Of a stretch of 35,516 nucleotides of DNA, positions 10,542 through 35,138 are shown one piece after another. The stretch is from Acidobacteriaceae bacterium (GTDB lineage Bacteria > Acidobacteriota > Terriglobia > Terriglobales > Acidobacteriaceae). The translations under genes and the position numbers were made by a program. The notes below the pieces were generated by a model, which saw only the letters and a program-made list of their open reading frames with translations, was not told the DNA's origin and searched no databases. Each line of letters begins with the position of its first letter. The stretch's first letter is position 1. The stretch spans positions 1 to 35,516 of the forward strand of contig PKUV01000182.1 of the NCBI GenBank assembly GCA_003131315.1, read 5' to 3'.

Positions 10542-10574
10542 AGCTCCTCGTTCTCGAGTTTCACCAGTTGCCCA

Positions 10575-11783: not shown

Positions 11784-11813
11784 GCAGAATCTCCTAATCG
11801 GTTCCCGGTGAAT

Positions 11814-13136: not shown

Positions 13137-13157
13137 GGGTAGTGGATGGGAGACGAT

Positions 13158-13943
13158 CTAACGCCCTACCATCACCTGTGCTTTGTCCTTCAATTGGTTC
13201 TGCAACGCCGGTCCCAACAGTGATGCTGAATTCTTGTCCAGATAAATGGTGGCGTTAGGGTGCGTGCGCAGAATCGATGCTGGCTCCATGGGGCTGATAC
13301 TTCCCTCAAAGCACAACTTCACGGCTTGTGCTTTGCGGGTGTCAGGCACGACCGCGAGAATCTCCTTTGCTTTCAGAATCTGGCGCACCGACATGGAGAT
13401 CGCCTGCTTCGGCACTTGCGAAATGTTGGCGAACCACGCCTCGCCTACCTGCTGTCGGCGGCACGCCTCGTCGAGGTTTACGACGATGTACGGCTCTTGC
13501 GTTTCGAAGTCTGCCGGAGGATCATTGAAAGCGATGTGCCCGTTCTCACCAATACCGAGAAAGGCGATGTCGATTGGCGCAGAAGCCAGGTCTTTGCCCA
13601 CAGCGCGCACGGCTTGGGCAGGATTTGCAGCATCACCTTCGAGCAAGTGATACCTGGTGATGCCGGTCTTCCGGACCAGTTGCTCCAGCAACATCTTACG
13701 AAAGCTTCCGGGATGCGTGACTGGCAACCCGACGTACTCATCGAGATGAAATGTCTCAACCTTTTGCCAATCGATGCCTGCCATCTTGGTGAGCGCGTCG
13801 AGGAACTCAAGCTGCGATGCTGCGGTTGCAGCGATGATCCGTGCATGGCCGCACTCCTCGATCGCCCGACGGATCGCGGCGGCGGCCTGCTCCGCCGCTG
13901 CTTTGCCCATGGAAGCTTTGTCGTTGAACACTTTGATTAGCAT
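13158..13943 (-). CDS. glucosamine-6-phosphate deaminase-like protein (NagB/PGL fold) with altered phosphate loop
   Basis: 261 residues from the ATG at 13943, chosen because AGGAG lies 9 nt upstream; an in-frame ATG at 13952 abuts that [13 protein letters not shown] (catalytic base Asp68) and [13 protein letters not shown] (130-142, His136) are diagnostic for NagB. However, the phosphate loop seen as P-T-G-G-T-P in E. coli is replaced by ATAASQ (39-44). The Asp141 and Glu148 positions of E. coli NagB are Asn134 and Asp141 here. The family deaminates and isomerises glucosamine-6-phosphate to fructose-6-phosphate; this variant may act on an unphosphorylated or different amino or keto sugar. It heads the manD operon, behind a perfect TATAAT box. 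No signal peptide. Confidence 0.8.
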
Positions 13944-13989
13944 GACGGACATCTCCTGGCAGCAGCCATATTTCTTCTCAGAACTCGAA

Positions 13990-16354: not shown

Positions 16355-16990
16355 ATGCGCGATGAAGACGAGAACCAGAAAAACCCTAATGACAGTCCGG
16401 AGAGCCCCGGCGTCTCCCGGCGCGACTTCCTCAAAATCTCCGGAATCTCCGTCGCTGTGCCTCTCGTCGCTGGTCCTCGTGTGATCAAGGCTGCGGGCCA
16501 GGAAGTCCGGGTCTATGGACCCGGCAAGGTCCCCATGGAATTCGCCATCAACGGCAAGAACTATAAGGCGAATCTCGAACCCCGGGTCACTCTGTTGGAC
16601 GCCTTGCGCGATGAGTTCGAACTCACCGGGGCCAAGCGCGTCTGCGACCGCGCAGAATGTGGCGCTTGCACTGTGCTGGTGGATAACAAACCTGTCTATG
16701 CCTGCGCGATGCTCGCCATCGAAGCCCAGCACAAAGCCATCACCACCGTCGAATCGCTGACGCGAGACGGCAAGTTGCACCCCATTCAGCAGGCGTTTGT
16801 GGACAATGATGCTTCACAGTGCGGTTTCTGCACGCCCGGTTTTGTCGTTGCCTGCAAAGCATTTCTCGACAAACATCCTCACCCAACGCCCGAAGACATT
16901 CGCCGAGGTCTCAGCGGCAACCTGTGTCGCTGTGGAACCTATGCCGGAATCCGCAAGGCAATCGCGCAAGTTGCGCAGAAGGGAGCCTGA
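16355..16990 (+). CDS. Tat-exported [2Fe-2S] subunit of xanthine-dehydrogenase/aldehyde-oxidase family enzyme
   Basis: 211 residues. A twin-arginine signal, SRRDFLK (Arg22-Arg23), with a hydrophobic stretch to about residue 47, routes the folded complex to the periplasm. The plant-type cluster ligands are Cys97, Cys102, Cys105 and Cys117. The second cluster ligands are Cys156, Cys159, Cys191 and Cys193 (CGFCTPG and CRCG). GGAGG lies 7 nt before the ATG. This subunit passes electrons from the molybdenum site to FAD. The arrangement small, large, FAD differs from the small-FAD-large order of E. coli paoABC, but the Tat signal on the Fe-S subunit is the same trick. The other subunits lack signals and would travel with it. 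Confidence 0.93.
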   Translation: MRDEDENQKNPNDSPESPGVSRRDFLKISGISVAVPLVAGPRVIKAAGQEVRVYGPGKVPMEFAINGKNYKANLEPRVTLLDALRDEFELTGAKRVCDRAECGACTVLVDNKPVYACAMLAIEAQHKAITTVESLTRDGKLHPIQQAFVDNDASQCGFCTPGFVVACKAFLDKHPHPTPEDIRRGLSGNLCRCGTYAGIRKAIAQVAQKGA

Positions 16991-16993
16991 CCT

Positions 16994-19357: not shown

Positions 19358-20346
19358 TGCGACCTTTTGAATATGTCAGCCCAAATACCCGAAGCCAAGC
19401 CATCAGTCTGCTGGGCGCAAGCCGGGGCAATGCCGAAATCCTCGCGGGCGGGACCGATCTGCTCACGCTGATGAAAGATGATGTGGTCGCGCCAAAACGG
19501 TTGATCAATATTAAGGGAATCAACGATCTCCACGGGGTTTCCTCCAACGCACAAGGATTTCACATCGGTGCGTTGACTACTCTTGGCGATCTAGCCGATG
19601 ACGCCACAGTAAGACAAAATTACCCGGCGCTGGCTGAGGCTCTGGCCGAAGCCGCGAGCCCGCAAATTCGCAACCTGGCCACGCTTGGAGGTAATCTGTG
19701 CCAGCGTCCGCGCTGCTGGTACTTCCGCAACGGATTTGGCCTTTTGCCGAAAAACGAGACTGGCAAGGAACTGGTCGCAGAAGGCGAGAACCGCTACCAT
19801 GCCATTCTCGGGAATGAGGGCCCTGCCAAGTTTGTCAGCCCGTCCACCCTTGTTCCCATTCTGGTCGCCTATGGTGCGAAGATCCGGCTGGAAGGGCCGA
19901 AAGGGAAACGCGAGCTTCCGCTGGAAAAGTTCTTCGTTATTCCGAAGAATGAAGGCGAACGCGAACATGATCTGCGACCGAACGAGATCGTCACCGAAGT
20001 GGTGATCCCGCCTGCGTCGGACGTAAGAGCCGCACACTACGAAATCCGCCAGAAGGAGATATTCGACTGGCCGCTTGCAGTTGCTGGCGTTGCATTGAAG
20101 ATGCGCGGCTCCAACGTTCAATCGGCCCGTATCGTGATGGGATATGTTGCGCCCGTGCCCTGGCCTTCGCCAGAAGCGGAGCAGGCCTTGGTGGGGCAGC
20201 CTATTAACAAGGATACGGCGCAGAGAGCGGCCGAGGCCGCCCTGACGAACGCTAAGCCGCTCAGCCATAATGCCTACAAAGTCCAACTCGCGCGTGTGGC
20301 GCTGAGGCGCGCGATCTTGAAGGCCGCATCGGGAGGTGTCTCATGA
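19357..20346 (+). CDS. FAD-binding subunit of xanthine-dehydrogenase/aldehyde-oxidase family enzyme
   Basis: 329 residues. An N-terminal FAD-binding domain (ILAGGTDLLTLMK near 28-40 and ATLGGNLCQRPRCWYFR about 108-124) and a C-terminal CO-dehydrogenase flavoprotein-type domain (from about 215) are clear. PaoB-like and 4-hydroxybenzoyl-CoA-reductase-like relatives carry a [4Fe-4S] loop here with four Cys. This protein keeps only Cys114 and Cys120; the later positions are replaced in GFGLLPKNETGKELV and GNEGPAKFV. The extra cluster is therefore probably absent. It starts on the last base of the large-subunit stop and its own stop overlaps the next small gene (ATGA). It receives electrons from the Fe-S subunit. 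Confidence 0.9.
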   Translation: MRPFEYVSPNTRSQAISLLGASRGNAEILAGGTDLLTLMKDDVVAPKRLINIKGINDLHGVSSNAQGFHIGALTTLGDLADDATVRQNYPALAEALAEAASPQIRNLATLGGNLCQRPRCWYFRNGFGLLPKNETGKELVAEGENRYHAILGNEGPAKFVSPSTLVPILVAYGAKIRLEGPKGKRELPLEKFFVIPKNEGEREHDLRPNEIVTEVVIPPASDVRAAHYEIRQKEIFDWPLAVAGVALKMRGSNVQSARIVMGYVAPVPWPSPEAEQALVGQPINKDTAQRAAEAALTNAKPLSHNAYKVQLARVALRRAILKAASGGVS

Positions 20347-21512: not shown

Positions 21513-22409
21513 TTAGTGTTCTGCGCCTTTTTGCACCATACCCGGATACCACGACCGCACGGCAAGAATACGTGATTTGACGTTGGGAGCACTGTAATAT
21601 CCAACGGTGGCGTTGAGCCGAAAGAAGTAGGCATCCCCGGCTTTGGCAGGATGCCGTCCGGCGATTCCGTCCATTCCTCCGCCTGCCACCATTACTCCGT
21701 GGCCGCTCAAAACCAGGTAAATCTCCTCTTCGCGCTCGTGATGGTGGGGAAAGTTAGTGCCACTCGGCTCGATTTCCATTAGAAAAAGGCTGGTCAAAAC
21801 ATGGCCAGCTGCGAGCCGGTCACGCTTACTGTCGAGATCTCCCATAAGCAGCCGGAAGCGAGCCGAGGATGGGTGGCCACTCACAATGGCCGTCGGCACA
21901 TCTTCTATGTTTGCCTTTAAGGGCTGCGGCGGTGGTTGAGATTGCTCAAATCCATTGGTGTGAAAACCCATAACAACCACAGTCAGCGGCAGGTCAGACC
22001 TATTACTTAACACATTTGGAATTGTCGCCGGGATATACAGGTAGTCTTCCTTCTTAAGCGGCACGATTTCATTTGCGTACTTCACCGAGCCGCTACCTTC
22101 GAGGACAACGTACACCTGATCTTCGTCTGAATATTGAACTGTAGCGCAGACCCCATTGGGATCAATTACCACTTCACCATATCGGGCAACGCCGACAACG
22201 ACGGATGTATCCCAGTCTCCCTGCCCGAACAAAGGCTTGTAGTGGCAAGTTGACGTTGTAAGATCGGACCTTTTTCCGCCAACTGCGGAAGTGTTGCGAT
22301 AGAGAAAGGTAGGATCGATCGTGCGCTGGTCCGCATGAAGCAGGGGTGCGCAGAAAGCGCCTACCAGCAACGCGATTACTATGACGGCATTCCGTTTGGT
22401 GAGATCCAT
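21513..22409 (-). CDS. secreted bicupin protein
   Basis: 298 residues with a signal peptide (about 1-26). Two cupin domains are visible. The first (about 80-145, SDEDQVYVVLEGSGSV) lacks the usual His ligands. The second (about 205-290) has PHHHEREEEIYLVLSGHG with His222-224 and Glu228/229, so only the C-terminal site should hold a metal. Cupins include isomerases, dioxygenases and sugar-binding proteins. It ends the nine-gene minus array, 61 bp after the first SelA-like gene, with AGAGG upstream. Export with sugar-oxidising partners suggests a role as isomerase or epimerase on sugar acids, but no reaction can be named. Confidence 0.83.
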   Translation of the reverse strand: MDLTKRNAVIVIALLVGAFCAPLLHADQRTIDPTFLYRNTSAVGGKRSDLTTSTCHYKPLFGQGDWDTSVVVGVARYGEVVIDPNGVCATVQYSDEDQVYVVLEGSGSVKYANEIVPLKKEDYLYIPATIPNVLSNRSDLPLTVVVMGFHTNGFEQSQPPPQPLKANIEDVPTAIVSGHPSSARFRLLMGDLDSKRDRLAAGHVLTSLFLMEIEPSGTNFPHHHEREEEIYLVLSGHGVMVAGGGMDGIAGRHPAKAGDAYFFRLNATVGYYSAPNVKSRILAVRSWYPGMVQKGAEH

Positions 22410-22470
22410 GAGTTATTACCTCTGGCGTATCGCGATTAAAGAATACCCTTCTATAGTTAGAGGAACCCGC

Positions 22471-23772
22471 TCACACCGATTGTTTGCGCGCATTGGCAAG
22501 AATCTGGCGTAGACGATTACCAACTGTGAGATCTTCCCCGACCCGTAAGGTCATGGAGACAATTTGCAACTGATTAGGAGGGGCTTCCTGTTTTCTTTTA
22601 GGGTCATCGCCTTCGCGGACAACCGGAACCAGGCTTGGGTTACTATTCGTCAGCACCTCAATACGAGGATCGCCTTCCCGCAGACGCTGGTCACATTCGG
22701 CTACTTTCATGCCAAAGCGCTTCTCATCCCACATCACTGTCAAGGTGGGATAACTGTTACCCTCTTCAGGGATCTCGATAGAGGTCGTAACTCCCGGCAC
22801 TGTTTGAACTAACTTCTCGATGCGTTCGACCCGGCTTCTCCACTCTTTGTTTAATGCCCCGAGATCCGCATGCGACCAATACTCAATTGCCGCAAGTATA
22901 CCGATAATTTCTTCTTTGCCTACTTTCATCGCCCGGCATACGGCGCCTTCCCACGGATTGCTATTTGCCAGAGCCGCATCGATGAGATATTTTCGGCCTA
23001 ACAGTATTCCGGAACATTGCGGGCCACGCAGACCTTTTCCACCGCTGAAACAATAAAGGTCGACACCCATTTTTGCGTAGCGTGTGAGATTCTCAAACGG
23101 AGGAATGCCCGCTGCATCGTCCAGTAGCATGGGGACCTCCGCCTTGCGCGTGATCTTCAGCGCTTGCACAAGACGGTCGTCTCGCCAAGTTGTGTAGACC
23201 ATTGCTGTCTGCGCATTAATGGCCGACTGCATATCCTCCACTCCATGGGCGAGCACCAATTTGCCTCCGGCGAGCCGGATCGCGTTATCGAACGCACTCC
23301 GGCCTCCCAACATAACGACTTCATGTTTCAAGCCGGTGGTGTCGGGCAATTGCCAGATATTGTTTGGATCGGACCCGGCGATGCAGGCCGCAGTCGCTAC
23401 AGCCATCGCGCCCGCCGACCCAGATGTGACCATTCCAGATTCGGCTCCAGAAAGCTCCGCAAGCCGCTTCCCTACTGCGCGTTGCAGTTCGAACATGTCG
23501 ACAAAATGCTGGGATGCATCCTCTACGGCTTGCCGCACCTCCGGTAGTTCAAGTGAGCCGCTCAGATAGGTCCACGTCCCTCGCGCATTAATAAATGGCC
23601 GAACCCCAAGACGGGTATAAACATGCGCGGACGCAAATCTTCGTGTAGTGGCAGCGACCGTGCTCGCAAGACTGCGAGAGCCAATAGTGACAAACAGCGG
23701 GGCAGCCGAAAGGAACTTGATAAAAGACCGCCGGTCATTCCCGTTATTCTGAAACCTATGTCCACGCAACAT
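22471..23772 (-). CDS. Tat-exported SelA-like PLP-dependent enzyme (glucosaminate ammonia-lyase-like), copy 1
   Basis: 433 residues from the ATG at 23772, chosen for the AAGGAG just upstream. An N-terminal twin-arginine signal, DRRSFIKFLSAAP (Arg14-Arg15), precedes a fold-type I PLP domain: RLGVRPFINARGTWTYLSG, ESGMVTSGSAGAMA, LLDDAAGIPP (Asp218 or Asp219 as pyridine-N partner) and FSGGKGLRGPQ (Lys246, PLP lysine). This SelA-like family includes DgaE, a D-glucosaminate-6-phosphate ammonia-lyase, and has no selenium role here. Tat export suits a cofactor enzyme that must fold with PLP in the cytosol. It is about 60% identical by eye to the copy at 27004-28284. Its neighbours are a PQQ dehydrogenase and a bicupin. 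Elimination of ammonia from an amino sugar acid is inference. Confidence 0.82.
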   Translation of the reverse strand: MLRGHRFQNNGNDRRSFIKFLSAAPLFVTIGSRSLASTVAATTRRFASAHVYTRLGVRPFINARGTWTYLSGSLELPEVRQAVEDASQHFVDMFELQRAVGKRLAELSGAESGMVTSGSAGAMAVATAACIAGSDPNNIWQLPDTTGLKHEVVMLGGRSAFDNAIRLAGGKLVLAHGVEDMQSAINAQTAMVYTTWRDDRLVQALKITRKAEVPMLLDDAAGIPPFENLTRYAKMGVDLYCFSGGKGLRGPQCSGILLGRKYLIDAALANSNPWEGAVCRAMKVGKEEIIGILAAIEYWSHADLGALNKEWRSRVERIEKLVQTVPGVTTSIEIPEEGNSYPTLTVMWDEKRFGMKVAECDQRLREGDPRIEVLTNSNPSLVPVVREGDDPKRKQEAPPNQLQIVSMTLRVGEDLTVGNRLRQILANARKQSV

Positions 23773-23872
23773 TGCGCTCCTTTTCTGAACTAGGGAAACA
23801 AATGTCTGCGATTTCGTGTATCGATTGCTGCTACGTTCGACCCAAAGCAAGCCGTTCCCTACAACCGGATAA

Positions 23873-25510
23873 TCAAGGCAACGCAAAACTAAACAAATCA
23901 TCTCCCGATGCAATGGCGACATATTGTTTACCGCCAGCTGAATAACTCATCGGAGATGCATGCAAGATCTGACCCGTATTAAAGTGCCATAAGGGTTTTC
24001 CGGTCTTAGCGTCGACTGCCTCAAAGCACTCTGCATCATCGGCAAAAAACACCAAACCTGAGGCAGTTGTCATGACGCCGCCCCAAGAATGAGAATTTCC
24101 CTCTTGTGGATAACGCCATGCAAAACTATTCTTCTCGAGGTCAAAGGCAAGAAGAACCTTCTTGCCCCTATTTTTGGGATCATGAGTGGTTCCAGTCGAG
24201 TAATAGTTGCTGCCTTCCGCAAAGTCCCCTGGTTTTCTAAAGTATGCTGCGCAATTATCAGATGCTAGAAAATAGAATAGATGTGTGAACTCGCTGTAAG
24301 AGGGAGAGAACCAGTTGGTAGCTCCTTCATCACCCGGACAAATTAGTGTGCCATTGGTAGTTGGCTGTAAGTCCGAGACTATTGGTCGGCCGTTGGCGCC
24401 AATCCCATTCGCCCAATTTATTTTCTCAGAAAACTGGGTCGCTGACAGGAACTTGCCATTGGTACGATCAAAAGTATAGATGAACCCATTGCGATTTGCC
24501 TCGACTAGAAGTTGTTGCAGCTTTCCCTTGTAAACTCTATCAATCAGAACAGCTGTTTCAACGCTGTCGTAGTCATATAGATCATGTGGGGTAAACTGGA
24601 AATACCATTTTAATTTTCCCGTATCCGCATCGATTGCCAGTAAACTCGCGGTGTAAAGGTCGTCTCCGGGGCGAACGCTGCCATCGTAATCTGGAGCAGC
24701 ATTGCCCGTACCCCAGTAGACAGTATTTAATTGAGGGTCATAGGTTCCCGGCATCCATGTTGTACCACCCCCATGCAGGTACGCATCTCCCGGCCAGCTT
24801 TCGGAGCCGAATTCTCCAGGACCTGGAATGGTCCAGAGGCGCCATACTAACTTTCCAGTACCAGCGTCGTACGCTGCAACAAAACCGCGCACTCCCGAAT
24901 CGCCGCCAGAAGTTCCCACCAACACTTTGTCCTTAACGACCAACGGAGCGCTTGTAGCTCCATAATTCTTGTTCCAGTCAGCATAGGCGACATCCCAGAG
25001 TAAGTGCCCGGATCGGGCATCGAGACACAACAGGTGGGCATTATCCGTTTCCATATATAAGCGCGTCCCTAATAAAGCGACGCCACGGCTTATATGACCG
25101 GCAGCATCATCGACAAGGCCACTGGACACAGGGCGCGAATAATGCCACAGCATGCGCCCATTTATTGAATTTAGAGCGTACGCATCGTTGGAGGCGGTGA
25201 TGTACATCACACCATTCACTACTACAGGGGTAACCTCAAGCGTGCCAGCATTTTTACTATGGAATACCCATTGCGCACGAAGTTGCCCAACATTTCCAGG
25301 GGTTATTTGCGTAAGGCTACTATAGCGTCTTCCTGTGTAATCGCCATTATAAGAAGGCCAATTCTGCTCAATCGTGTGGGAAAGCAACTGCGCTGGTTGC
25401 ACATCCACGGCCGCTGTTATTGTTTGACTCCTGCTCTGGCCGACTGAACCGAACAACAACACACAACCGCAAATTGCTACATTCCATATGCTTCGTATAT
25501 TCACGATCAT
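23873..25510 (-). CDS. periplasmic PQQ-dependent dehydrogenase (quinoprotein)
   Basis: 545 residues. A signal peptide (1-29) is followed by an eight-bladed propeller with tryptophan-docking repeats. Cofactor and active-site motifs: SGGDSGVRGF with Asp204 where methanol dehydrogenase has its metal-binding Glu, WGTGNAAPD (Asn270), and TPHDLYDYDS with Asp313 (catalytic base position) and Asp315. It has no fused haem domain, so electrons probably go to the di-haem cytochrome encoded at 30640-31521. GGAGG lies 12 nt before the ATG inside the previous gene's end, with 5 bp between genes. It would oxidise alcohols or aldoses in the periplasm; given the neighbours, an aldose or amino sugar to its lactone is likely, but that is inferred. 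Confidence 0.9.
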   Translation of the reverse strand: MIVNIRSIWNVAICGCVLLFGSVGQSRSQTITAAVDVQPAQLLSHTIEQNWPSYNGDYTGRRYSSLTQITPGNVGQLRAQWVFHSKNAGTLEVTPVVVNGVMYITASNDAYALNSINGRMLWHYSRPVSSGLVDDAAGHISRGVALLGTRLYMETDNAHLLCLDARSGHLLWDVAYADWNKNYGATSAPLVVKDKVLVGTSGGDSGVRGFVAAYDAGTGKLVWRLWTIPGPGEFGSESWPGDAYLHGGGTTWMPGTYDPQLNTVYWGTGNAAPDYDGSVRPGDDLYTASLLAIDADTGKLKWYFQFTPHDLYDYDSVETAVLIDRVYKGKLQQLLVEANRNGFIYTFDRTNGKFLSATQFSEKINWANGIGANGRPIVSDLQPTTNGTLICPGDEGATNWFSPSYSEFTHLFYFLASDNCAAYFRKPGDFAEGSNYYSTGTTHDPKNRGKKVLLAFDLEKNSFAWRYPQEGNSHSWGGVMTTASGLVFFADDAECFEAVDAKTGKPLWHFNTGQILHASPMSYSAGGKQYVAIASGDDLFSFALP

Positions 25511-25515
25511 TACAA

Positions 25516-26892
25516 TCAGTGTCCTCCGTTATCCCTGGTGACGAATGCTTCTCCAAGAGCCCCACGGTCAACATGGTGAGTATCGATTAGGTGAATCGAC
25601 ACTCGCACCACATCCTTAGCTCCTGCAATGACCTGGTGAAGTTCAACTTCATTTTGTGGACTGACAGATTGGATCGGAACGTGACCTCTTTCCACGCCGC
25701 TTTCGCCATAGAGATACGCCTCCAATTCTCCGGGAAAGAAAACTCCAAAACTGCCACTGACGTCTAGATTTCCACTGCTTCTTGTGACCACCAAAGGTTG
25801 ACCGACCAAACCTGCGTCAGTGACAGTATGAAGATCTCGCCCCATACGAGCAGGGAACCATGATGTGTCCATGCTATAGGTTTCTCCCGGCGATAACACC
25901 GCCATAGGGCTATTGAGTTCCGCTTCCATATAGTATGGGGTCTCTTCAAGGTTCTTCGACGAAAGGTAGGGCACTCCCTGCGCGTCCAGCTCTACGGTGG
26001 GCCCATTTTTATAGAAAATAACCGACGCTTTTCCTGGATATGACGCTCCTTCTGTGTATTGATGTTTCTCAACCATCGCATACTGATAGGACCCATCGAT
26101 CACGGCGAGCCAACCGGCAGTAGAATCTATCCATACTTCGCTCTCCAGATAGCGCCAATTCAAGCGGAACAGGTCGTCTTTTACGCTATAGGACGGATCG
26201 TTCGCGAGTCCATCCCGAGGGTGATATCCAATTAAATACGACGAATGAGGATTGAGCGGGGTAAAAGCCCAGAAGTCGTGGTTGTATTGGCTGGCATCCT
26301 TCGGGTTCGACAAATCGTATTGAGACACAGACTGCACCGACCAGGATATTGTATGGCCTGTGAAATTCCTGGTGATGGCATGAAAAGAAATTTCCGGAGA
26401 ATCATTGCCAATGCTGATCTCGCGGGTATATTGCAGTCCCGTGGGCGGATCGGGGGGACCTTCTAAACGCACGGCACATCGGTCCTTTTGCGACACAATC
26501 GTGAAGGCATAAGACCCATCGTCCAGTTCGGTGGAAGCTCCGGTCCAATGCTGCTCGTCGTCGTTACCTTCCGGCAAAGGCCAAATCTTGTCGCCACCGT
26601 AATTAATCCAGCGGCCTGCCGCCTCAGCAGGAGAAATGTATTTTCCTTTGTACTTGGGATTAACAAATAAATAAGGGTGCCCATTGAATGTGACTTGCAT
26701 CAGTCGGCCGCCGAGTTGAGGTACAAAGGTCAATCGTACCCAGTCGTTCGTTACTTCCTGGGCCTGCCAGCCATCGAACACTGTCGGGCGGATCTGACAT
26801 GGAGAAGGTGAAACCGGCGTTGAGCCTTGGGCATTTGCTATGGCTATCATAGCGCCCAGCACCAGAGCCACACTGAAACCATATACTTTCAT
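25516..26892 (-). CDS. secreted DUF4380-type protein, galactose-mutarotase-like fold
   Basis: 458 residues from the ATG at 26892 (GGAG 9 nt upstream; clean signal peptide to about residue 21, ANAQ). The body resembles the DUF4380 and aldose-1-epimerase-like super-sandwich: VRLTFVPQLGGRLMQVTFNG, a GGDKIWPLPEG motif, LQYTREISI, and a C-terminal beta domain. These proteins bind sugars and may act as mutarotases, but catalytic His and Glu cannot be fixed by eye. It lies directly before the PQQ dehydrogenase gene in the operon (5 bp), so it may equilibrate sugar anomers for oxidation. Longer starts add residues without an export signal. Confidence 0.75.
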   Translation of the reverse strand: MKVYGFSVALVLGAMIAIANAQGSTPVSPSPCQIRPTVFDGWQAQEVTNDWVRLTFVPQLGGRLMQVTFNGHPYLFVNPKYKGKYISPAEAAGRWINYGGDKIWPLPEGNDDEQHWTGASTELDDGSYAFTIVSQKDRCAVRLEGPPDPPTGLQYTREISIGNDSPEISFHAITRNFTGHTISWSVQSVSQYDLSNPKDASQYNHDFWAFTPLNPHSSYLIGYHPRDGLANDPSYSVKDDLFRLNWRYLESEVWIDSTAGWLAVIDGSYQYAMVEKHQYTEGASYPGKASVIFYKNGPTVELDAQGVPYLSSKNLEETPYYMEAELNSPMAVLSPGETYSMDTSWFPARMGRDLHTVTDAGLVGQPLVVTRSSGNLDVSGSFGVFFPGELEAYLYGESGVERGHVPIQSVSPQNEVELHQVIAGAKDVVRVSIHLIDTHHVDRGALGEAFVTRDNGGH

Positions 26893-27003
26893 CTTCAAGA
26901 TCTCCAATTGGCACACTGATCTGTCAATTCGTGACAACTGTGATAGATTCCGTTCGCAGATATCATCTATTGGTACTTCTAATGCGATGGCTATAATCGA
27001 GTG

Positions 27004-28284
27004 TTAGACGCCCTTAGTCCTAGCTACTGTTAACAGTTGGCGCAGTCTTTTACCCACAATAATGTCCTCGCCTGGTTTTAGTGTCATGGATATTATCTGA
27101 AGCTTATCCTCGGCGTCAGGCAACTTAGCAGGCCCGTGAGGAATTCTGATTAAGACGTCACTTGGGTTGTCATTGGTCAACACCGCGATGCTGGGTATAC
27201 CGTCAAGCAACTGCTTTGCGCAATCCGCGGTTTTATAGCCCCACGCCTCTTGATCCCATAAGACAGTAAGTGTGGGATATTGGTTTTCCGTGGTAGGCGT
27301 GAAGATCTCGGTGTGGACACCCGGGACTGTTCCGACTAGCGTTGCAATGCGTTCGACGCGTCCAGTCCATTCGTTCGTCAGCACGGTCATGTCTACACGA
27401 AGAATGGCCTCGACGGCAGCGAGACATCCCATGATTTCCTCTTTGCCAACCTTCATGGCACGGCATACTGCACCCTCCCAAGGATTGGTGTTCGCAAGGG
27501 CAGCTTCTATAAGATCTTTACGTCCAAGGAGAACTCCTGTCGATTGCGGGCCACACAAACCCTTGCCACCACTGACTGTATATAAATCGCAGCCCATCTT
27601 TGCGAATAACCGGAGGTTTTCCACGGGAGGAATACCGTCGGCGGCATCCATGAATATGGGGACGCGTCGACTTTTGGCAATCGCTATCTCCTTGGCCAGT
27701 TGGGAAGGAAGCGACGTCGTATAGATCATTGCCGTATTACTGGTAATCGCGTTTTGAAGCTGCTCTGCCGAATCTGCAATTACAAGTTTCCCGCCCGCCA
27801 GGCGAATCGCACTATCGAACGGGCTTCGGCCACCGACCATGACAACTTCATGCTTGAGTCCCGTAGTATCTGGCAATTGCCAAACAAATTTCGGGTCCGC
27901 TCCCGCAATGCATCCTGCTGTGCCTGAGGCTATAGCGCCTGCAGCTCCAGAGGTAATCATGCCGGATTCCGCACCGGTCAATTCCGCCAATCGCTTCCCG
28001 ACAGCATGCTGGAGATCAAATATATTGACATAGTGCAGGGAGGCGGCCTCCTGAGCGGCTTTCACTTCGGGCAATTCCAGAGTAGCGCTTAAATAGGTCC
28101 ATGTCCCCCGTCCGTTAATCACGGGTTTTACACCCAGACGGGTGTAAATGTTATCTGTGGAATCTTTCGCTACCTCTGCCCATCCCGTTCCAAACGCCTG
28201 CTGGATGCCTACTCGTGTAAGTAGGGGCAAAGCAGATAGCCATTTAACAAACGTTCTACGTTGCATTTTCAGGTTCGGCTTCAT
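27004..28284 (-). CDS. Tat-exported SelA-like PLP-dependent enzyme (glucosaminate ammonia-lyase-like), copy 2
   Basis: 426 residues. A twin-arginine signal, QRRTFVKWLSALP (Arg9-Arg10), precedes the PLP fold: RLGVKPVINGRGTWTYLSA, ESGMITSGAAGAIA, FMDAADGIPP and VSGGKGLCGPQ (Lys241). The start could also be Met7. It is colinear with the copy at 22471-23772; Asp-Asp in copy 1 is Asp-Ala here next to the cofactor site. Its gene is 15 bp downstream of the triple-RidA gene, the closest link between PLP enzyme and RidA in the locus. RidA proteins destroy reactive enamines made by PLP lyases, which supports an eliminating reaction. Two copies suggest two stereo- or substrate variants. Confidence 0.82.
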   Translation of the reverse strand: MKPNLKMQRRTFVKWLSALPLLTRVGIQQAFGTGWAEVAKDSTDNIYTRLGVKPVINGRGTWTYLSATLELPEVKAAQEAASLHYVNIFDLQHAVGKRLAELTGAESGMITSGAAGAIASGTAGCIAGADPKFVWQLPDTTGLKHEVVMVGGRSPFDSAIRLAGGKLVIADSAEQLQNAITSNTAMIYTTSLPSQLAKEIAIAKSRRVPIFMDAADGIPPVENLRLFAKMGCDLYTVSGGKGLCGPQSTGVLLGRKDLIEAALANTNPWEGAVCRAMKVGKEEIMGCLAAVEAILRVDMTVLTNEWTGRVERIATLVGTVPGVHTEIFTPTTENQYPTLTVLWDQEAWGYKTADCAKQLLDGIPSIAVLTNDNPSDVLIRIPHGPAKLPDAEDKLQIISMTLKPGEDIIVGKRLRQLLTVARTKGV

Positions 28285-28299
28285 TTGGTACCCCTGTAG

Positions 28300-29535
28300 T
28301 CATTCTTTTCGTCGTCTTACCGCAATAAGTGAGATTTGCTCAGTAGCCTCTGCGTTCAAGTCGACAGTCTGTTGCAGAGTCGTTCGTGCAGGAAAGTCAT
28401 TCTTGAAGAACTTTCCATAGAGATTAGTCATTCGATCGGAGTCATTGATTTGACGCAGATAGACGGTAGAAAATACCACATCGGCGAAATCCATGTCAGC
28501 TTCCTGCAGGCCATCCAGAAGATTTCGCATGGATTGCCGGAGTTGTAATTCGAAATCAGGAGTAACAATTCCCTGCTCTGGGATGAAACCATCCTTGGCG
28601 GAAAGATATAGGGTGTCGCCATAGAGCACGCCAGGACTGGCGGTTGGACTCGGTAGCATATTTCTGGGACGGACGGCCTTACGCTTTGCGAGATCCGCGC
28701 CCGCAATGCAACTAAAAATGACATGATTGTTGTTTGGAAGATCGGCAACTTGAATCGTTCCCCGTCCCGGCGTATTCCCGAACTCAAAATAGGTTCTGTA
28801 AATGTCACCCATCACGTCATATTTACCGCTAACGCTCATGTAGGGATTCACCCATAGAACGTTTTTCAGACCCATGTTGGCAGTTTTTAATATCGCAGCC
28901 ACGTTATCGAGAGCCTGCTTGACCTCGCCACGGAAATCCACTGCGAGTTTGCCAGTCAGGGGATTGGTTCCCCCCTGTGCTGACATGTATAAAACGTCAT
29001 CCGCCTGGATCGCGGGTGGATCCACGTGTTGTCCTTGAGGCCATCCCTGAGGCCAGATTTGCCGTCGCTGGATTGTATTTCGTGCGGATATACAGTTGAT
29101 TTCAATCTTCTCGCCGTGAGGAAGGGCAGCAACTACGAGGACAGTCCGTGCGGGAGGATTCGGACCAATAGATTTCCAGTAGACTTCATTCATCGCAGCT
29201 ACATCATGCGCGTCAGTCAGATAGATGTTCATCCAAACAACGTTGCCGAAGTCCATTCCCGCTTCATGCAGGATGCTTTGTACGTTTCGCAATGACTGGC
29301 TTACCTGTTGTTGAAAGTCTGTTGCAAGACTGCCGTCGGAATTACGACCACCTTGACCGGAGACGTACAGACTGCCGTTGGCAAGAACGCCAGGACTATA
29401 GGATGTACCTATGGCCTTGTCGGCAGCCGGCTTAATTATTCTGGAGGATAAGTCTTGCGCAGAGAGTTTTGTGCCGAATGCAACAACCAATACACAGAGA
29501 AGAACAAATGGACCGCGTCTTACTACATTGCTCAT
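28300..29535 (-). CDS. secreted fusion of three RidA (YjgF/YER057c/UK114) domains
   Basis: 411 residues from the ATG at 29535, which gives a good signal peptide (1-26, LSAQ). Three tandem RidA domains span about 32-150, 165-280 and 295-408. Domain 1 has PPARTVLVV (Arg130) and the Glu of KIEINCISA. Domain 3 has PARTTLQQ (Arg384) and TEQISLIAV. Domain 2 keeps an Arg in TPGRGTIQV (Arg258) but lacks the usual Glu (HVIFSCIAG), so it may be structural. RidA normally forms a cytosolic trimer that hydrolyses enamines or imines from PLP enzymes; a three-domain chain could fold as an internal trimer. Export and the neighbouring PLP gene suggest the same job in the periplasm. Confidence 0.87.
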   Translation of the reverse strand: MSNVVRRGPFVLLCVLVVAFGTKLSAQDLSSRIIKPAADKAIGTSYSPGVLANGSLYVSGQGGRNSDGSLATDFQQQVSQSLRNVQSILHEAGMDFGNVVWMNIYLTDAHDVAAMNEVYWKSIGPNPPARTVLVVAALPHGEKIEINCISARNTIQRRQIWPQGWPQGQHVDPPAIQADDVLYMSAQGGTNPLTGKLAVDFRGEVKQALDNVAAILKTANMGLKNVLWVNPYMSVSGKYDVMGDIYRTYFEFGNTPGRGTIQVADLPNNNHVIFSCIAGADLAKRKAVRPRNMLPSPTASPGVLYGDTLYLSAKDGFIPEQGIVTPDFELQLRQSMRNLLDGLQEADMDFADVVFSTVYLRQINDSDRMTNLYGKFFKNDFPARTTLQQTVDLNAEATEQISLIAVRRRKE

Positions 29536-29589
29536 CAGGCCCCCACAACAACGGTTAGCAGTTATAATGTCGAACGACACTGATATCGC

Positions 29590-30576
29590 TCATAAAGTCG
29601 GAATGAATCCATGGGCCTTGGTGTGAATCTTGTACACCGAAGTCTCGGCGGTAATGTACAGCGTTGAGTAATCCGCATCTCCCCAGGCAAGGTTCGCCGG
29701 TTGCTCTGGAACTACGATGGTTCCGAGATGAGCGCCTTGATGACTCCACACCCAGATGCCCTTCGGGCCTACCACATAAAGATTCCCTTCCATGTCAACC
29801 TTCATGCCGTCTGGCACACCGTCCTTTGGATCCGCGGTCTCGACGCCAAAGATGCGCCCGTTGGCCAGGGTGCCATCCGACTGGAAGTCGTAGACGCGAA
29901 TGTTTTGTTGTTCGGAATCATCCACATATAACTTTTTCCCATCTGGAGAAAAAACAAGTCCATTGGGCTGCGTCAGGTCTTTGGTCAGCAATTGCACCTG
30001 ACCATTTTTAGCAATTCGATATACGCCTTGGAATGGAATCTCCTGCTTCTGTCCGGCGACCAGATCCATATTTGGATCGGTAAAGTAGATCGCGCCGTCC
30101 GGGCCGATGACGACGTCGTTTGGACTGTTAAGACGTTTTCCCTGATAGCGGTCGGCGACAATGGCATAGCTCTTATCGTCCGGTGATAGCCGGATTATCG
30201 CGCGCAGGACGCTGGCGCAATCCAAAAGGCGCTGCTGCGTATCATATGTATTACCGTCCGGGTCTCCGAGAGATATCATCTCCTGCTTTTGGCCGCTAGC
30301 AACGTTTAGCCGAAAGATCTTGTTTAAGGTTTCATCGCTAACCCAGAGATAGCCGGCCTTGTCCCAGACTGGACCTTCAGTAAAGCCAAATCCAGAGGCA
30401 ACCTTGGCCAGCTGGGCATTGTGATCGACTAAGTTCCAGAAAGAAGGTGACATTCCCTGCAGTTCAAATGTGCGCTTGGCAACTTGGGCACGAACGGCTG
30501 TACACATTATTCCGCCCAGGAGTGCAATCCCGGCTATTGAGCATATCGAAAGTTGTTTTATCCGTGACCGCAACAA
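29590..30576 (-). CDS. secreted SMP-30/gluconolactonase-family lactonase
   Basis: 328 residues from a TTG at 30576 with AGGA 8 nt upstream and a clean signal peptide (to about residue 31). Another in-frame TTG at 30630 would give 346 residues with a less convincing leader. The six-bladed propeller shows all metal and substrate positions: Glu67 (GFTEGPVWD), Asn153 (NSPNDVVIGPD), Asn205 (QPNGLVFS) and Asp256 (PDGMKVD). It hydrolyses aldonolactones to aldonic acids, the step after a PQQ sugar dehydrogenase. It lies between the cytochrome c and RidA genes, which fits the oxidation route. Confidence 0.86.
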   Translation of the reverse strand: MLRSRIKQLSICSIAGIALLGGIMCTAVRAQVAKRTFELQGMSPSFWNLVDHNAQLAKVASGFGFTEGPVWDKAGYLWVSDETLNKIFRLNVASGQKQEMISLGDPDGNTYDTQQRLLDCASVLRAIIRLSPDDKSYAIVADRYQGKRLNSPNDVVIGPDGAIYFTDPNMDLVAGQKQEIPFQGVYRIAKNGQVQLLTKDLTQPNGLVFSPDGKKLYVDDSEQQNIRVYDFQSDGTLANGRIFGVETADPKDGVPDGMKVDMEGNLYVVGPKGIWVWSHQGAHLGTIVVPEQPANLAWGDADYSTLYITAETSVYKIHTKAHGFIPTL

Positions 30577-30639
30577 GGTATATGTCCTTTGTGGAAGAAG
30601 TTGGCAAATGACAATTCGCCGGCGGAGCAATTATTCCGT

Positions 30640-31521
30640 TTAATTCGATTTCAAGTCGTCGTCATCGTCGTCTGACCTGGGATGCTTCTTGGCGACATGA
30701 CTGGCATTCTTTGTCCCAACGCTGAGCAGGTAGCTAATCAGATCGTTCAGCTCATTGCTATTGAATAGGGAGCCATAATTAACCGGCATCAGCGAACGAG
30801 ACTCCATGTCAATCTGTTTCAAATCAAACTTCTGAAACAACTGAAACGATCCATCCAGCGTTTGTAACGCAATGGAGAAATTATCGTTACTTTTGACTAT
30901 TCCTGTAACTTTCTTGCCGGAACGAGTTACCACGGTGGTGGCATTAGATCGCGCCGGTAACTTGTTTTTAGGGTCGGTGATCACTCCACGAATTTGGTCT
31001 GCCGTCTCATGCGATCCATAGAGTGAGAGATCACTAGCAATAAAGCCGCCCTTTCCGTTGACCATGTGACATGTAGAGCATTGTGCTTTCCCGAAGAAGA
31101 GCAATTCTCCGGCATGTACGTCCCCAGGGAGCTGTACAACCGCTCCCTTTCCTTGCAGAAACCGCAAATAATCAACGAGGACCTTTACCTTTTGCGGTTC
31201 CAGCGAACCAAAGGCCGGCATGCCTGTACCGGAGATTCCATTTCGAACAATTCCGATCAACTCGCCGTTCGACAGCTGCTGCACTTCAGAGACCGTCGCA
31301 ATATCAGTCGCACGCTCCCCGCCGCGACCATCCGCCCCATGACAGGCGGCACAGTTCGTTGCAAAAAGACCGTATCCTGGGGAGGAATTAGGGGATGCAC
31401 TAGGGACTGTGGTGGATTGGCTGGCGTCGACCGATTGTTGCGCATGCAATGAAGCGAAGGAGAGCATTCCTACGATTACAAGCAGGCGAGAGATAGCTGG
31501 CCACGAGTACAGTATCCGCAA
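30640..31521 (-). CDS. periplasmic di-haem c-type cytochrome
   Basis: The call uses a TTG start at 31521 because a strong GGAGG lies just upstream and the product then begins with a typical signal peptide (293 residues). An ATG at 31560 (306 residues) has no ribosome site and a poor leader. Two haem motifs are visible, CAACH and CSTCH, with GMPAFG as a likely axial Met for the first haem. The C-terminus ends in an acidic run of Asp. The second half resembles cytochromes from PQQ dehydrogenase clusters. It probably accepts electrons from the PQQ dehydrogenase of the same operon and passes them to the respiratory chain. Next gene is 63 bp away (9 bp if the longer lactonase start is used). Confidence 0.84.
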   Translation of the reverse strand: MRILYSWPAISRLLVIVGMLSFASLHAQQSVDASQSTTVPSASPNSSPGYGLFATNCAACHGADGRGGERATDIATVSEVQQLSNGELIGIVRNGISGTGMPAFGSLEPQKVKVLVDYLRFLQGKGAVVQLPGDVHAGELLFFGKAQCSTCHMVNGKGGFIASDLSLYGSHETADQIRGVITDPKNKLPARSNATTVVTRSGKKVTGIVKSNDNFSIALQTLDGSFQLFQKFDLKQIDMESRSLMPVNYGSLFNSNELNDLISYLLSVGTKNASHVAKKHPRSDDDDDDLKSN

Positions 31522-31616
31522 GAACCCTCCTTCCCCTTCCGCTATACACTCAGACGCCATCTAGCAAATAGATAAGACGGTATCAAAGTGTATAGCGTTT
31601 GAACATCTATCTCCGC

Positions 31617-34600
31617 TTAGAACAATAACTTTAAGGCGACCTGCATGATACGTGGATCTCGAGCGGAAGTCACATACCCAAAACCGCCCTGGCCTACGTT
31701 GTCGACATTTCCCGATGGATTGTTGAACTGTGCATGATTGAAGATGTTGAACGCCTCTACACGGAACTGCAACTGCGTACTTTCGGTGATCTGCGTATCT
31801 TTCAGCAGGGCCATATCAGAGTTGAAGATGCCCGGCCCAGTAAAGAACCGACGCGAAGCATTTCCGACCTGTCCAAGTGGTTCTGGAACGAAGTAGTGTG
31901 GATTGAAATATGGTTGCCCCGAACGCGGATTGCGATTGGAATACAGAGAACCACCATTGACGGCATAACTAGGCTCATCGATTGAGTCATTGAATGTTCC
32001 ACTGAGTGAGTTGTCATCGGATTCACTGAGCTGAATGGGCTGGCCGCTGGCGAAGGTCGAGACTCCAGACAAAGCCCACCCTGCGGTGAATCTTTTTGCG
32101 ATATCGCCATTACCGATGAAGTTGTTAAACGGCAGCTGGACAGTATAGCTCACCACTAAGTCTTGCGGGACGTCGAAAACAGACAAAGCGCGGCTTAGCC
32201 TGGGGTTAAAAGGGTTGGTTGCATCAAACGATGTCGAACCATTGTCAATAGATTTGTCAAAGGTGTAGGCAAGCAGAACATTTGCATATTTGTCGGTATG
32301 TTTCACGCTTACCTGCAGGGAGTTAAAACTTGAGCTGACAGCTGTTTTCATGTACGGGTTGCTGCCGAAATTAATCCCAAATGTAGGTCGCGTACCGGTA
32401 ACAGTCTGTCCGTTTGCCAGGGTATAGACATTGTCTTCCCCACCTGGACCGCAGGGGGTTGAACCCGGTGCCAGGTTCGCAGTGGTCAACGAGAGGCAGA
32501 GCGCTGCATTAGCTGGATTCGCATCTTCAAACGTCAGGAGGTGCCGACCAACCGATCCCACGTAGCTGGCGCTCACCACCGTAGACGTTCCCAGTTGCCG
32601 CTGCAGAGACAAGTCAAATTGCTGCACGTACGGTATTTTGTTGTGAGGATAGAAGTAGTCACCCCCGGAAATGGGCGTGGCTTGGACCCAATTGAAGGAT
32701 GTGTCTGGATTTTTTGGCGATACGTTGGTTGGGGGAAACGTGAAGGGAAATTTTATTCCCTCATTATTCCCTGTCGCACGATCGATATATGGGGATGCCA
32801 AGAGTGTAGGTACAGGGGCATTGTAATACAAGCCATACGGTGCATCCCCGACTTCGACAAAGCCAGTGGCATCCTCAATGGAACTGTAGAAGATGCCGTA
32901 GCCGGCACGAACACTGGTTGCACCTGGGGCGCCAAGAAGTTTCCCGAGCCAGCCTTCTGCCACAGCCGGCGCATAGGCAAATCCCACTCTGGGAGCAAAG
33001 TTGCTATACTGAATGGGGGACAATGTTCGCGGCACACCCGGATCTCCCGGAACTACCAACCCTAACGGCGCACCCGGGAAGGCTTGGGACTGTTCGCCGG
33101 GGATGAGCGTCTCCAGTTTGTTTTGGGTGTCATACCAAGGCGACATGATCTCATAGCGAAGACCATAATTGACCGTCAGTGTGGGCCGCGCGCGCCAGCT
33201 ATCCTGCGCATAAACTCCATAGTATTTGCTGCGTGAATCAAGAAGCTGCTGGCTGGCCTGCGTAAAATTAGCTGGAGCACCAATCAGGAAGTCGGCAAAG
33301 TCCAGGCCTGTCTCTTGACCATTAAAGCCAAATGCCCCGTTCGCATCATCGTAGTTTCGTTCGTTGATCTGATCGTAATGAAAATCTGCGCCGAACTGCA
33401 GGGTGTGGGTGCCGACAATTTTTGTGAAATTATCAATGATCTGGAATGTATTGTTGTACTGATTCAAGGCATCCTGGGGAAGTCCAAAGGCATAGTTATT
33501 GAACATAAAAGATGGGACCCCTTCCAGCGCTGGACTGATAGCACCAATTCCACCTGTACTATTCCAAGGAGTATTAAAGCCCAACGAGCCCAGAGAGACC
33601 CCCGTGCCACCCTGCGGAAGCCCGGTGTGGTTAACGTCTCGCAGATATACGAAACGAACATCATTGACAGTGGAACTATTGACCGTTGTCGTCAGGCCCA
33701 AATTTATCATCTGAGTACGACCCTGATTAGTACTATCAAAGCCGGGGATATTGATACCTTGGGCATAAGGAGTAGCGGTTGAGAATTGATCGAAAAAGTA
33801 ATATCCGAATAAAGAACCGTAACGCGTGTTCGTATCCAGGCGGAATCCGCCTTTGTTGTCGGTCAAGGTCCCGTTATAGGCTGAAGCCTGATAATTAATG
33901 CCTGACGGTAGATTTTCGTTGGGCGCTGGAATGTATTTCAGAGAATTCAGTGCGACCGGAGACCACGCACTCTGTGGAATTGTGGCGTTCGGGAATACAC
34001 ATTGAGCGGAAGTCGTGCATCCTTGCGTATAGTAGGGCTCTCCCTGCGATACGGCATACCCCAGTTCCTGCGAAAGTGTACTGGCCCAAGAAGTTCCGTA
34101 CACTGAATTGGTGAGCGCCCCTGCTTCATCGGACAGATTTCCAGTGCGATCTGCTGTGGTGGGAACAGCAAAGGACTGGGTCTGGCCTAAGATTTGTTTA
34201 GTTCCCTGATAGTCGGCAAAGAAGAAAACCCTGTCTTTTTTTATCGGCCCGCCAATAACCCCACCGAACTGATTCTGGATGAAGACCCCACGCGAGGGTG
34301 CGAAGTAATTCTTCGCGTCCAGATCTGTATTGCGCAGAAAGTCGAACACATCTCCGTGAATTTTATTGGTTCCAGATTTGGTGACGACATTGATTTGGCC
34401 ACCGCTGTAGTTTCCATATTCAGCGTTGAAATTATTGGTGATGATGCGAAATTCCGCAATGGAGTCGAGATTCGGAATCATCGCCGCTCCATTGTGAACA
34501 CCTTCCTCCGCGTCGGCTCCATTCACCATGAAACCGTTCGAGCCGAGCCGGCCGCCGTTTACAGACTGGCCTCCGTTCGATTGGTCGCCGGATATCGTTG

Positions 34601-35138
34601 CTGCGCCTACTCCCGTCGTTGTGTCATTGCCTTGATAAGGCGAAACGCCAGGCTGTAAAGCCAACAGGTCAATATAAGAGCGGCCATTCAGGGGCACCGA
34701 GGTGATCTTGGCGCCCCCGATGACCTCGCCCATTTGCGAACTCTGGGTTTCCACCAGGGGCGCTTCGCTCTCCACCTCGATGGTATTTACCACTGATCCC
34801 AACTCCAACTTGACGTCGATGCGAATGGCAGAGTTGGCGTTGATGGTGATGCCGTTTTCCTGGACATCCCGAAATCCAGGCTTGCTGATGGTGACGTTGT
34901 ACACGTCTACATTGAGAGCCGGGAAACTATAGAAGCCCTTAGAGTCGGCGGCGGTGGTATGTTTCACATTCGTCGACACGCTGGTGGCGACCAGAGTAGC
35001 CCCGGGAACCACGGCGCCGCTCGGATCGGTAACAATTCCTGAGATTGAACCGGTAATGTCAGCCCATGCGACAGCTGCCCCCAGCAATACAACCGCACTA
35101 ATGGTGACCGTTACAACTAGCCCGATAAACCGATTCAT
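31617..35138 (-). CDS. TonB-dependent receptor, Oar-like (receptor 2)
   Basis: 1,173 residues. A signal peptide (about 1-26) is followed by a carboxypeptidase regulatory-like domain (ITGSISGIVTDPSGAVVPG). The plug has VPLNGRSYIDLLALQPG and GGQINVVTKSGTNKIHGD, and the long barrel ends in KLLF. It is a clear paralogue of receptor 1, with long shared stretches. It is the first gene of the nine-gene minus array, 57-95 bp ahead of the cytochrome, so its cargo is probably the substrate of the PQQ/SelA-like pathway. A palindromic operator-like site lies 110 bp upstream. GGGAG precedes the ATG by about 8 nt. Confidence 0.92.
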   Translation of the reverse strand: MNRFIGLVVTVTISAVVLLGAAVAWADITGSISGIVTDPSGAVVPGATLVATSVSTNVKHTTAADSKGFYSFPALNVDVYNVTISKPGFRDVQENGITINANSAIRIDVKLELGSVVNTIEVESEAPLVETQSSQMGEVIGGAKITSVPLNGRSYIDLLALQPGVSPYQGNDTTTGVGAATISGDQSNGGQSVNGGRLGSNGFMVNGADAEEGVHNGAAMIPNLDSIAEFRIITNNFNAEYGNYSGGQINVVTKSGTNKIHGDVFDFLRNTDLDAKNYFAPSRGVFIQNQFGGVIGGPIKKDRVFFFADYQGTKQILGQTQSFAVPTTADRTGNLSDEAGALTNSVYGTSWASTLSQELGYAVSQGEPYYTQGCTTSAQCVFPNATIPQSAWSPVALNSLKYIPAPNENLPSGINYQASAYNGTLTDNKGGFRLDTNTRYGSLFGYYFFDQFSTATPYAQGINIPGFDSTNQGRTQMINLGLTTTVNSSTVNDVRFVYLRDVNHTGLPQGGTGVSLGSLGFNTPWNSTGGIGAISPALEGVPSFMFNNYAFGLPQDALNQYNNTFQIIDNFTKIVGTHTLQFGADFHYDQINERNYDDANGAFGFNGQETGLDFADFLIGAPANFTQASQQLLDSRSKYYGVYAQDSWRARPTLTVNYGLRYEIMSPWYDTQNKLETLIPGEQSQAFPGAPLGLVVPGDPGVPRTLSPIQYSNFAPRVGFAYAPAVAEGWLGKLLGAPGATSVRAGYGIFYSSIEDATGFVEVGDAPYGLYYNAPVPTLLASPYIDRATGNNEGIKFPFTFPPTNVSPKNPDTSFNWVQATPISGGDYFYPHNKIPYVQQFDLSLQRQLGTSTVVSASYVGSVGRHLLTFEDANPANAALCLSLTTANLAPGSTPCGPGGEDNVYTLANGQTVTGTRPTFGINFGSNPYMKTAVSSSFNSLQVSVKHTDKYANVLLAYTFDKSIDNGSTSFDATNPFNPRLSRALSVFDVPQDLVVSYTVQLPFNNFIGNGDIAKRFTAGWALSGVSTFASGQPIQLSESDDNSLSGTFNDSIDEPSYAVNGGSLYSNRNPRSGQPYFNPHYFVPEPLGQVGNASRRFFTGPGIFNSDMALLKDTQITESTQLQFRVEAFNIFNHAQFNNPSGNVDNVGQGGFGYVTSARDPRIMQVALKLLF

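Follow-up and report, generated by a model that had tools for sequence, protein, structure and literature searches.

The window analysed here, 35,516 nucleotides long, is the whole of contig PKUV01000182.1 (C94 in our numbering) of a soil Acidobacteriaceae bacterium whose 6.0-Mb genome is 99.7% complete. Between positions 21513 and 35138 it carries a cassette of nine minus-strand genes, running from a TonB-dependent receptor to a bicupin with intergenic gaps of 5-111 bp. Two of the products, SelA1 and SelA2, are SelA-like pyridoxal 5'-phosphate (PLP) enzymes, 59% identical to each other, and a third is made of three RidA repeats (Table 1). Gene families were assigned from Pfam and NCBIfam profile matches, which agree with the families given for these genes in a preliminary description of the locus; the common strand given there is also borne out. 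We find that the gene set is real and conserved, a variant, with predicted export, of a known kind of system.

Table 1. The nine genes of the cassette, listed from the first to the last (ORF, open reading frame)
Gene product	Position	Strand	Features
TonB-dependent receptor, Oar-like	31617..35138	minus	carboxypeptidase-regulatory domain and OMP_b-brl_4 (644 bits); Sec-like signal; first cassette gene
Exported cytochrome c	30640..31560	minus	two haem motifs, CAACH and CSTCH; TIGR02603 81.8 bits, cut-off 68.15
SMP-30/gluconolactonase	29590..30630	minus	TEGPVW, NSPNDV and LYVDDS motifs intact
Exported triple RidA	28300..29535	minus	ORF 28300-29580, likely ATG near 29535; TIGR00004 209.1 bits, cut-off 106.25
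SelA2, SelA/DgaE-like PLP enzyme	27004..28284	minus	Tat-type signal; predicted amino-sugar-acid ammonia-lyase
DUF4380 protein	25516..26892	minus	ORF 25516-26937, likely ATG near 26892; mutarotase-like fold in model; Sec-like signal
Quinoprotein dehydrogenase	23873..25510	minus	near NCBI "acido-empty-quinoprotein group A"; no vicinal Cys pair; Sec-like signal
SelA1, second SelA/DgaE-like PLP enzyme	22471..23772	minus	Tat-type signal; ORF to 23922, likely ATG near 23772
Exported bicupin	21513..22409	minus	Sec-like signal; present at 17 of 48 SelA1/2-clade loci

Both SelA-like enzymes match the SelA/aminotransferase class V family, which we take to be fold type I PLP enzymes, and their closest solved relative is DGL (profile E 1.8e-62), an ammonia-lyase of the DgaE type. 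The Schiff-base lysine of PLP, within an SG(A/G)K motif, is present in all 181 relatives compared, including both window enzymes, and the carboxylate-binding Arg226 is kept in 137 of them (Lys in 27). Arg301, on the other hand, is found in only 20 of the 181 and is a threonine in SelA1 and SelA2, so that the phosphate-binding arginine of DgaE, judged at this position, is missing. In DGL, three arginines (301, 332 and 346) lie near the docked phosphate, His163 protonates the enamine, and the H163A variant is still active and releases free enamine, which shows near 293 nm, according to the part of the published account available (PMC9529869). The His162-His163 proton-donor loop of DgaE is lost in the window enzymes, where the aligned loops read VYTTWRDD and IYTTSLPS; among the 181 relatives a single one has SHH in this loop. 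The threonine at the Arg301 position and the absence of histidine from the loop thus point to a free amino sugar acid as the substrate and to release of the enamine. Overall, the residues of the active site are better suited to an unphosphorylated amino sugar acid than to the 6-phosphate.

The RidA protein carries a P(A/G)R motif in each of its three repeats (ORF positions 143, 271 and 397), whose arginine is presumably the substrate arginine of RidA. This motif, together with a TIGR00004 score above the cut-off, places the protein in the Rid family. Its predicted structure (predicted local distance difference test score, pLDDT, 87.7; predicted template-modelling score, pTM, 0.86) gives a template-modelling (TM) score of about 0.28 of its length against single RidA chains, near one third, and 0.52 over 350 columns against chorismatases, which are built from RidA-like domains. 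The model therefore fits a RidA trimer made of a single chain.

Relatives at E 1e-40 were found in 37 of the 396 genomes searched within the phylum. Scanning named genomes gave 591 pattern matches and 577 relatives, and among the best 80 of these 577, 70 have an acidobacterial record title. SelA-like ORFs shorter than 280 residues, loci with identical SelA cores and matches beyond the distance or score limits were excluded; short contigs are common, and co-occurrence counts are hence lower bounds. Clade partners were counted within 10 kb, except RidA and RraA, for which any match in the fetched stretch counts. The 48 deduplicated loci of the SelA1/2 clade have as partners RidA of the RidA3 class (34 loci), the quinoprotein (27), the TonB receptor (24), the DUF4380 protein (22), the cytochrome (17), the bicupin (17) and SMP-30 (13), and all seven are present in the window and at three other loci (L132, L204 and L205). 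This is the conserved co-occurrence that the preliminary description had set beforehand as a check. A sister module is formed by the SelA3 clade (13 loci), with its own quinoprotein at 12 loci, RidA1 at 11, a cytochrome at 9 and RraA at 8. With a background of about 1.4 RidA matches per Mb (293 matches in 203.6 Mb of 37 genomes), a RidA gene lies within 5 kb of 98 of the 181 SelA-like genes and within 500 bp of 83. Where a quinoprotein is encoded no more than 8 kb from the SelA-like gene (32 deduplicated loci), RidA is present in 29 cases, versus 53 of the 130 loci that have no such quinoprotein. The cassette also occurs on one contig with a non-acidobacterial label (L126), and SelA-like genes on two more (L146 and L165), the labels being Betaproteobacteria, Alphaproteobacteria and Arcobacter; these are either mislabelled bins or cases of transfer.

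Export signals were called by reading motifs in the N-termini, Sec-like signals being judged by eye. SelA1, read from an internal ATG (about 23772), and SelA2 carry the twin-arginine motifs NDRRSFIKFL and MQRRTFVKWL, respectively; the h-region of SelA2 failed a stricter hydrophobicity test and passed a relaxed one. Since TatC is encoded in the host genome (contig C66), the motif, the h-region and the twin-arginine translocation (Tat) machinery are all in place, and both enzymes are predicted Tat substrates. The remaining seven proteins have Sec-like N-termini, in SMP-30 and cytochrome c only behind a longer leader. The signals claimed earlier for all nine products, RidA included, are thus recovered at the level of motifs. 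The relaxed Tat test is passed by 160 of the 181 SelA-like proteins; among the other 21, we read 12 as ORFs extended too far upstream, in which the motif directly precedes the enzyme domain, 2 as cut by contig ends and 7 as having no clear motif. A Tat motif is likewise found in 42 of 50 RidA1 proteins versus 131 of 1037 background ORFs, and a Sec-like N-terminus in 35 of 42 proteins of the triple-RidA class versus 402 of the same 1037.

Taken together, these features make it on balance probable that the cassette encodes a periplasmic route from a 2-amino-2-deoxy sugar to a 2-keto-3-deoxy acid and ammonia. The TonB receptor would admit the amino sugar or its oligomers to the periplasm, where the DUF4380 protein may equilibrate the anomers. 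The profile match of the latter (28.1 bits) falls just short of the Pfam cut-off of 29.4, and its model (mean pLDDT 79.1, pTM 0.80) has GalM as its top PDB match (TM 0.43, query length). The quinoprotein would oxidise C1 to give a lactone and pass its electrons to the cytochrome c, its likely acceptor. SMP-30, whose three intact motifs we take to be the sites of its metal ligands, would open the lactone ring to give the amino sugar acid, a compound that is chemically a beta-hydroxy alpha-amino acid. Its beta-hydroxyl group would be split off by the two SelA-like enzymes, with release of an enamine, and the exported RidA trimer would hydrolyse this enamine, or the imine, to the keto acid and ammonia. 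Finally, the keto acid, 2-keto-3-deoxygluconate (KDG) or an epimer, would enter the cytoplasm to be phosphorylated and cleaved. The succession of oxidase, lactonase, ammonia-lyase and RidA, already put forward in the preliminary description, is plausible. The sequence itself shows the genes with their export signals, their conservation and the residues for cofactor and ligands; the substrate, the succession of reactions, the passing of the enamine to RidA and the origin of the PQQ are inferred. For the bicupin, no PDB structure matches at E 0.001.

The host's third SelA-like gene (contig C60, L043) belongs to the SelA3 clade and lies with an exported RidA (RidA1) and RraA proteins. Its neighbours include a KDPG aldolase (Eda) above its cut-off, a KDG-kinase-like gene and a galactonate-type major facilitator superfamily (MFS) transporter, the last two below theirs; such neighbours are what a route to 2-keto-3-deoxy acids predicts. 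The same locus also holds a short-chain dehydrogenase/reductase (SDR) gene and a fumarylacetoacetate hydrolase (FAH) family gene resembling 2,4-didehydro-3-deoxy-L-rhamnonate hydrolase, below its cut-off. Of 162 loci, 45 have an EF_0837-type deacetylase no farther than 8 kb from the SelA-like gene, 32 have a quinoprotein within that distance and only 3 have both. This rarity of the two together suggests two ways to amino sugar acids of one kind, either by oxidising the free amino sugar or by deacetylating an N-acetyl acid. One such deacetylase (L083) scores 407 bits against a cut-off of 371, and a BBE-domain protein lies beside deacetylase-type cassettes in four stretches (L081, L087, L088 and L089).

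Somewhat unlikely, in our estimate, is that the substrate is of another kind, the SelA-like proteins being dehydratases of a different beta-hydroxy alpha-amino acid, such as a D-serine- or threonine-like or a cell-wall-derived one, and the quinoprotein oxidising an alcohol rather than an aldose. The alcohol-dehydrogenase-like character of the quinoprotein and the distance of the SelA-like proteins from true DgaE would suit this, as does OngC, the deaminase of the oxidative chitin pathway, which in the portion of its description available also deaminates D-serine and D-threonine (PMC9537276). However, the lactonase and the mutarotase-fold protein recur alongside the SelA1/2 enzymes, and KDG-type sugar-acid genes adjoin the third locus of the host.

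The quinoprotein bears on a further alternative. It barely exceeds the cut-off for alcohol dehydrogenases dependent on pyrroloquinoline quinone (PQQ) (TIGR03075, 481.6 versus 480.05 bits), falls under that of TIGR04528, the acido-empty-quinoprotein group A (527.6 versus 650 bits), and is the only match to the latter (E up to 0.001) in the genome. The vicinal disulphide is missing, the Cys pair of 1kv9 being aligned with other residues, and among 37 aligned relatives only one has CC. The protein may thus be a relic, non-catalytic or with a different cofactor, so that only the lyase, RidA and the lactonase matter, working on amino sugar acids that come from another source such as lytic polysaccharide monooxygenases (LPMOs). 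The name that NCBI gave to its nearest family would agree with this, as would PqqC, which exceeds the cut-off in only 4 of the 10 genomes with a quinoprotein beside the SelA-like gene (the window's included). We nevertheless consider a relic improbable: the GTGN and TPHDLYDYD motifs, presumably those of metal binding and catalysis, are intact, the gene recurs together with its cytochrome, and the congener G417, which has a related cassette, has PqqB, PqqC and PqqE above the cut-offs with a pqqD-like reading frame between.

As to the source of PQQ, the host itself retains the 3' end of a pqqC gene followed by a pqqD-like ORF (L041, 1189-1948; G000:C187, about 32738-33497), the pqqC part being 80% identical over 145 bp to that of G417. 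With this relic, and none of PqqB, PqqC and PqqE above the cut-off in the genome, we rejected synthesis of PQQ by the host, and the dehydrogenase would depend on PQQ scavenged from its surroundings or on a different cofactor. PqqE matches were likewise discarded as a sign of PQQ synthesis (best, 91 of 381 bits; all 14 controls also match, none above the cut-off). The idea that the cassette tracks PQQ synthesis was also dropped, PqqC exceeding the cut-off in 4 of the 12 genomes with a SelA2 relative (E below 1e-100) versus 17 of 68 others. The "PQQ oxidation" of an aldose assumed in the preliminary description has therefore to be softened: the quinoprotein has no vicinal cysteines and alcohol dehydrogenases as its nearest relatives, so that oxidation at C1 of an aldose is an inferred activity.

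Finally, an ordinary sugar-oxidation operon, with the PLP and RidA genes as passengers or as detoxifiers of enamines from other reactions, would agree with RidA being known chiefly as a remover of reactive enamines, as the available part of PMC9529869 has it, and is nonetheless very improbable, RidA being among the most constant SelA-like partners in both clades, often within 500 bp, and bearing an export signal as the SelA-like proteins do.

Several observations weigh against the periplasmic amino-sugar route. The quinoprotein resembles alcohol dehydrogenases, and PqqB, PqqC and PqqE stay below the cut-offs in the host genome. The SelA-like enzymes score far below the DgaE cut-offs (161 and 150 bits for TIGR01437, cut-off 385), with further profile scores of 148.8 and 138.5 bits. 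Sec calls depend on a weak hydrophobicity test, which many of the background ORFs also pass. The host genome gives no EF_0837-type deacetylase match at 1e-20, a search that did not include OngB itself. At 88 of the 162 loci neither a quinoprotein nor a deacetylase lies within 8 kb, partly due to short contigs. In addition, a strict rule linking the loss of His163 to the presence of RidA as a partner is weakened by exceptions of both kinds: a Rhizobium SelA-like protein without a signal retains SHH yet has an adjacent RidA, and four proteins with neither signal nor SHH (L103, L104, L109 and L110) have no RidA in their stretches. The loop is also hard to align, and when the sequences are searched as plain text, a His pair precedes the PLP lysine in three of the 181 relatives (L172, L181 and L186).

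The guanine-plus-cytosine (GC) content of the cassette is 51.0%, compared with 57.1% in window bases 1-21300, and third-position GC is 0.47-0.56 in its genes versus 0.64-0.73 in eleven other measured genes. This drop is a sign of horizontal gain, by which the cassette was likely acquired from a relative. The nearest relative of SelA2, among the best 80 of the 577, is from Paracidobacterium acidisoli (76%), and the sole copy in the congener is 58% identical. The rest of the window holds another sugar-acid operon (9765-13952), with a KduD-like SDR, the D-mannonate dehydratase ManD (717.8 bits, cut-off 550), and a galactonate-type MFS transporter and a glucosamine-6-phosphate-deaminase-like protein that are both below their cut-offs. 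It also encodes a three-subunit molybdenum hydroxylase (2Fe-2S, Moco and FAD; 16355-20346) and two proteins of 717 and 715 residues (3544-5697 and 14139-16286), each with an F5/8 type C domain as its only Pfam match (E 0.001).

More tentatively, Acidobacteriota may carry out the whole oxidative deamination of amino sugars outside the cytoplasm. SelA-like enzymes devoid of the enamine-protonating histidine would pass a free and reactive enamine to the exported RidA trimer, making RidA indispensable as a catalytic step; neither the ammonia nor the toxic intermediate would enter the cytoplasm, and the cassette would move between genera, even into a host that scavenges PQQ. The best-studied bacteria oxidise amino sugars and remove their ammonia inside the cytoplasm. 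If the proposal is right, PLP-dependent amino sugar catabolism is shifted out of this compartment, and RidA acts as a pathway enzyme rather than as a house-keeping detoxifier. Acidobacteriota are major and poorly studied soil bacteria, and an extracytoplasmic route freeing ammonia from amino sugars would be of consequence for nitrogen in soil. The "empty" acidobacterial quinoproteins would also gain a concrete genomic context.

Five known systems or loci can be compared with the cassette. On plasmid p2 of Rhizobium leguminosarum (NZ_CP071401.1, L219), RidA also lies directly upstream of a SelA-like gene. That protein, however, has no signal peptide and keeps His162/163; ABC transporter genes surround it, and no dehydrogenase or lactonase is annotated in the 17-kb stretch. 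A tblastn search finds relatives in 237 plasmid records, of which Rhizobium accounts for 138. Another locus is a row of genes on plasmid pACIX902 of Granulicella tundricola, with a TonB receptor and with SelA-like and RidA proteins that bear Tat-type signals; RraA is also in the row, and a deacetylase, a lactonase and a BBE-domain protein with no obvious signal stand where the window has the quinoprotein and SMP-30. One of its SelA-like enzymes has a C-terminal extension. Long Tat-type SelA-like proteins with roughly 100 additional C-terminal residues, not seen in the window enzymes, are also encoded in L083 (10184-11791), L062 (3943-5547) and L060 (9028-11193).

Export of a PLP enzyme by Tat is not new and has precedents in PvdN and PtaA, which are exported as folded holoenzymes and active in the periplasm. 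These tailor siderophores, whereas catabolism is proposed here, and the accessible portion of the source mentions no RidA (PMC6206403). DGL/DgaE is likewise a SelA-like PLP enzyme with the same PLP lysine and carboxylate arginine. Unlike the window enzymes, for which a free acid is proposed, it acts on a phosphorylated acid, after uptake by the phosphotransferase system (PTS), and has His162/His163 and Arg301; the text available names no RidA as one of the Dga genes (PMC9529869).

The nearest counterpart is the ong oxidative chitin pathway of Pseudoalteromonas prydzensis, in which the amino sugar acid GlcN1A is deaminated to KDG. As with the proposed route, it combines TonB receptors, an unphosphorylated amino sugar acid, a PLP deaminase yielding KDG, a RidA gene and a KDG kinase (PMC9537276). 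The exported RidA/SelA-like set was not found described in the open PMC literature (a body without subscription papers or preprints), and to this extent the earlier statement that no periplasmic version was known stands; a cytoplasmic route that involves RidA and leads from the amino sugar acid to KDG without phosphorylation, on the other hand, was already known from ong. There, deamination is cytoplasmic, whereas the window enzymes bear Tat- or Sec-like signals; OngC belongs to fold type III of the PLP enzymes, whereas those of the window match SelA/aminotransferase class V. The ong pathway also starts from LPMO products with a deacetylase, and its eight-gene cluster, as described in the part of the paper at hand, has neither quinoprotein nor lactonase (PMC9537276). 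A 2025 paper on the ong deacetylase mentions neither the periplasm nor RidA in its available portion (PMC12017989). The RidA gene (ongD) is essential for the pathway in vivo, a role that the same part of the original study leaves unexplained (PMC9537276). A free enamine handed by the lyase to RidA, as proposed here, would offer a testable reason for this requirement in oxidative chitin breakdown.

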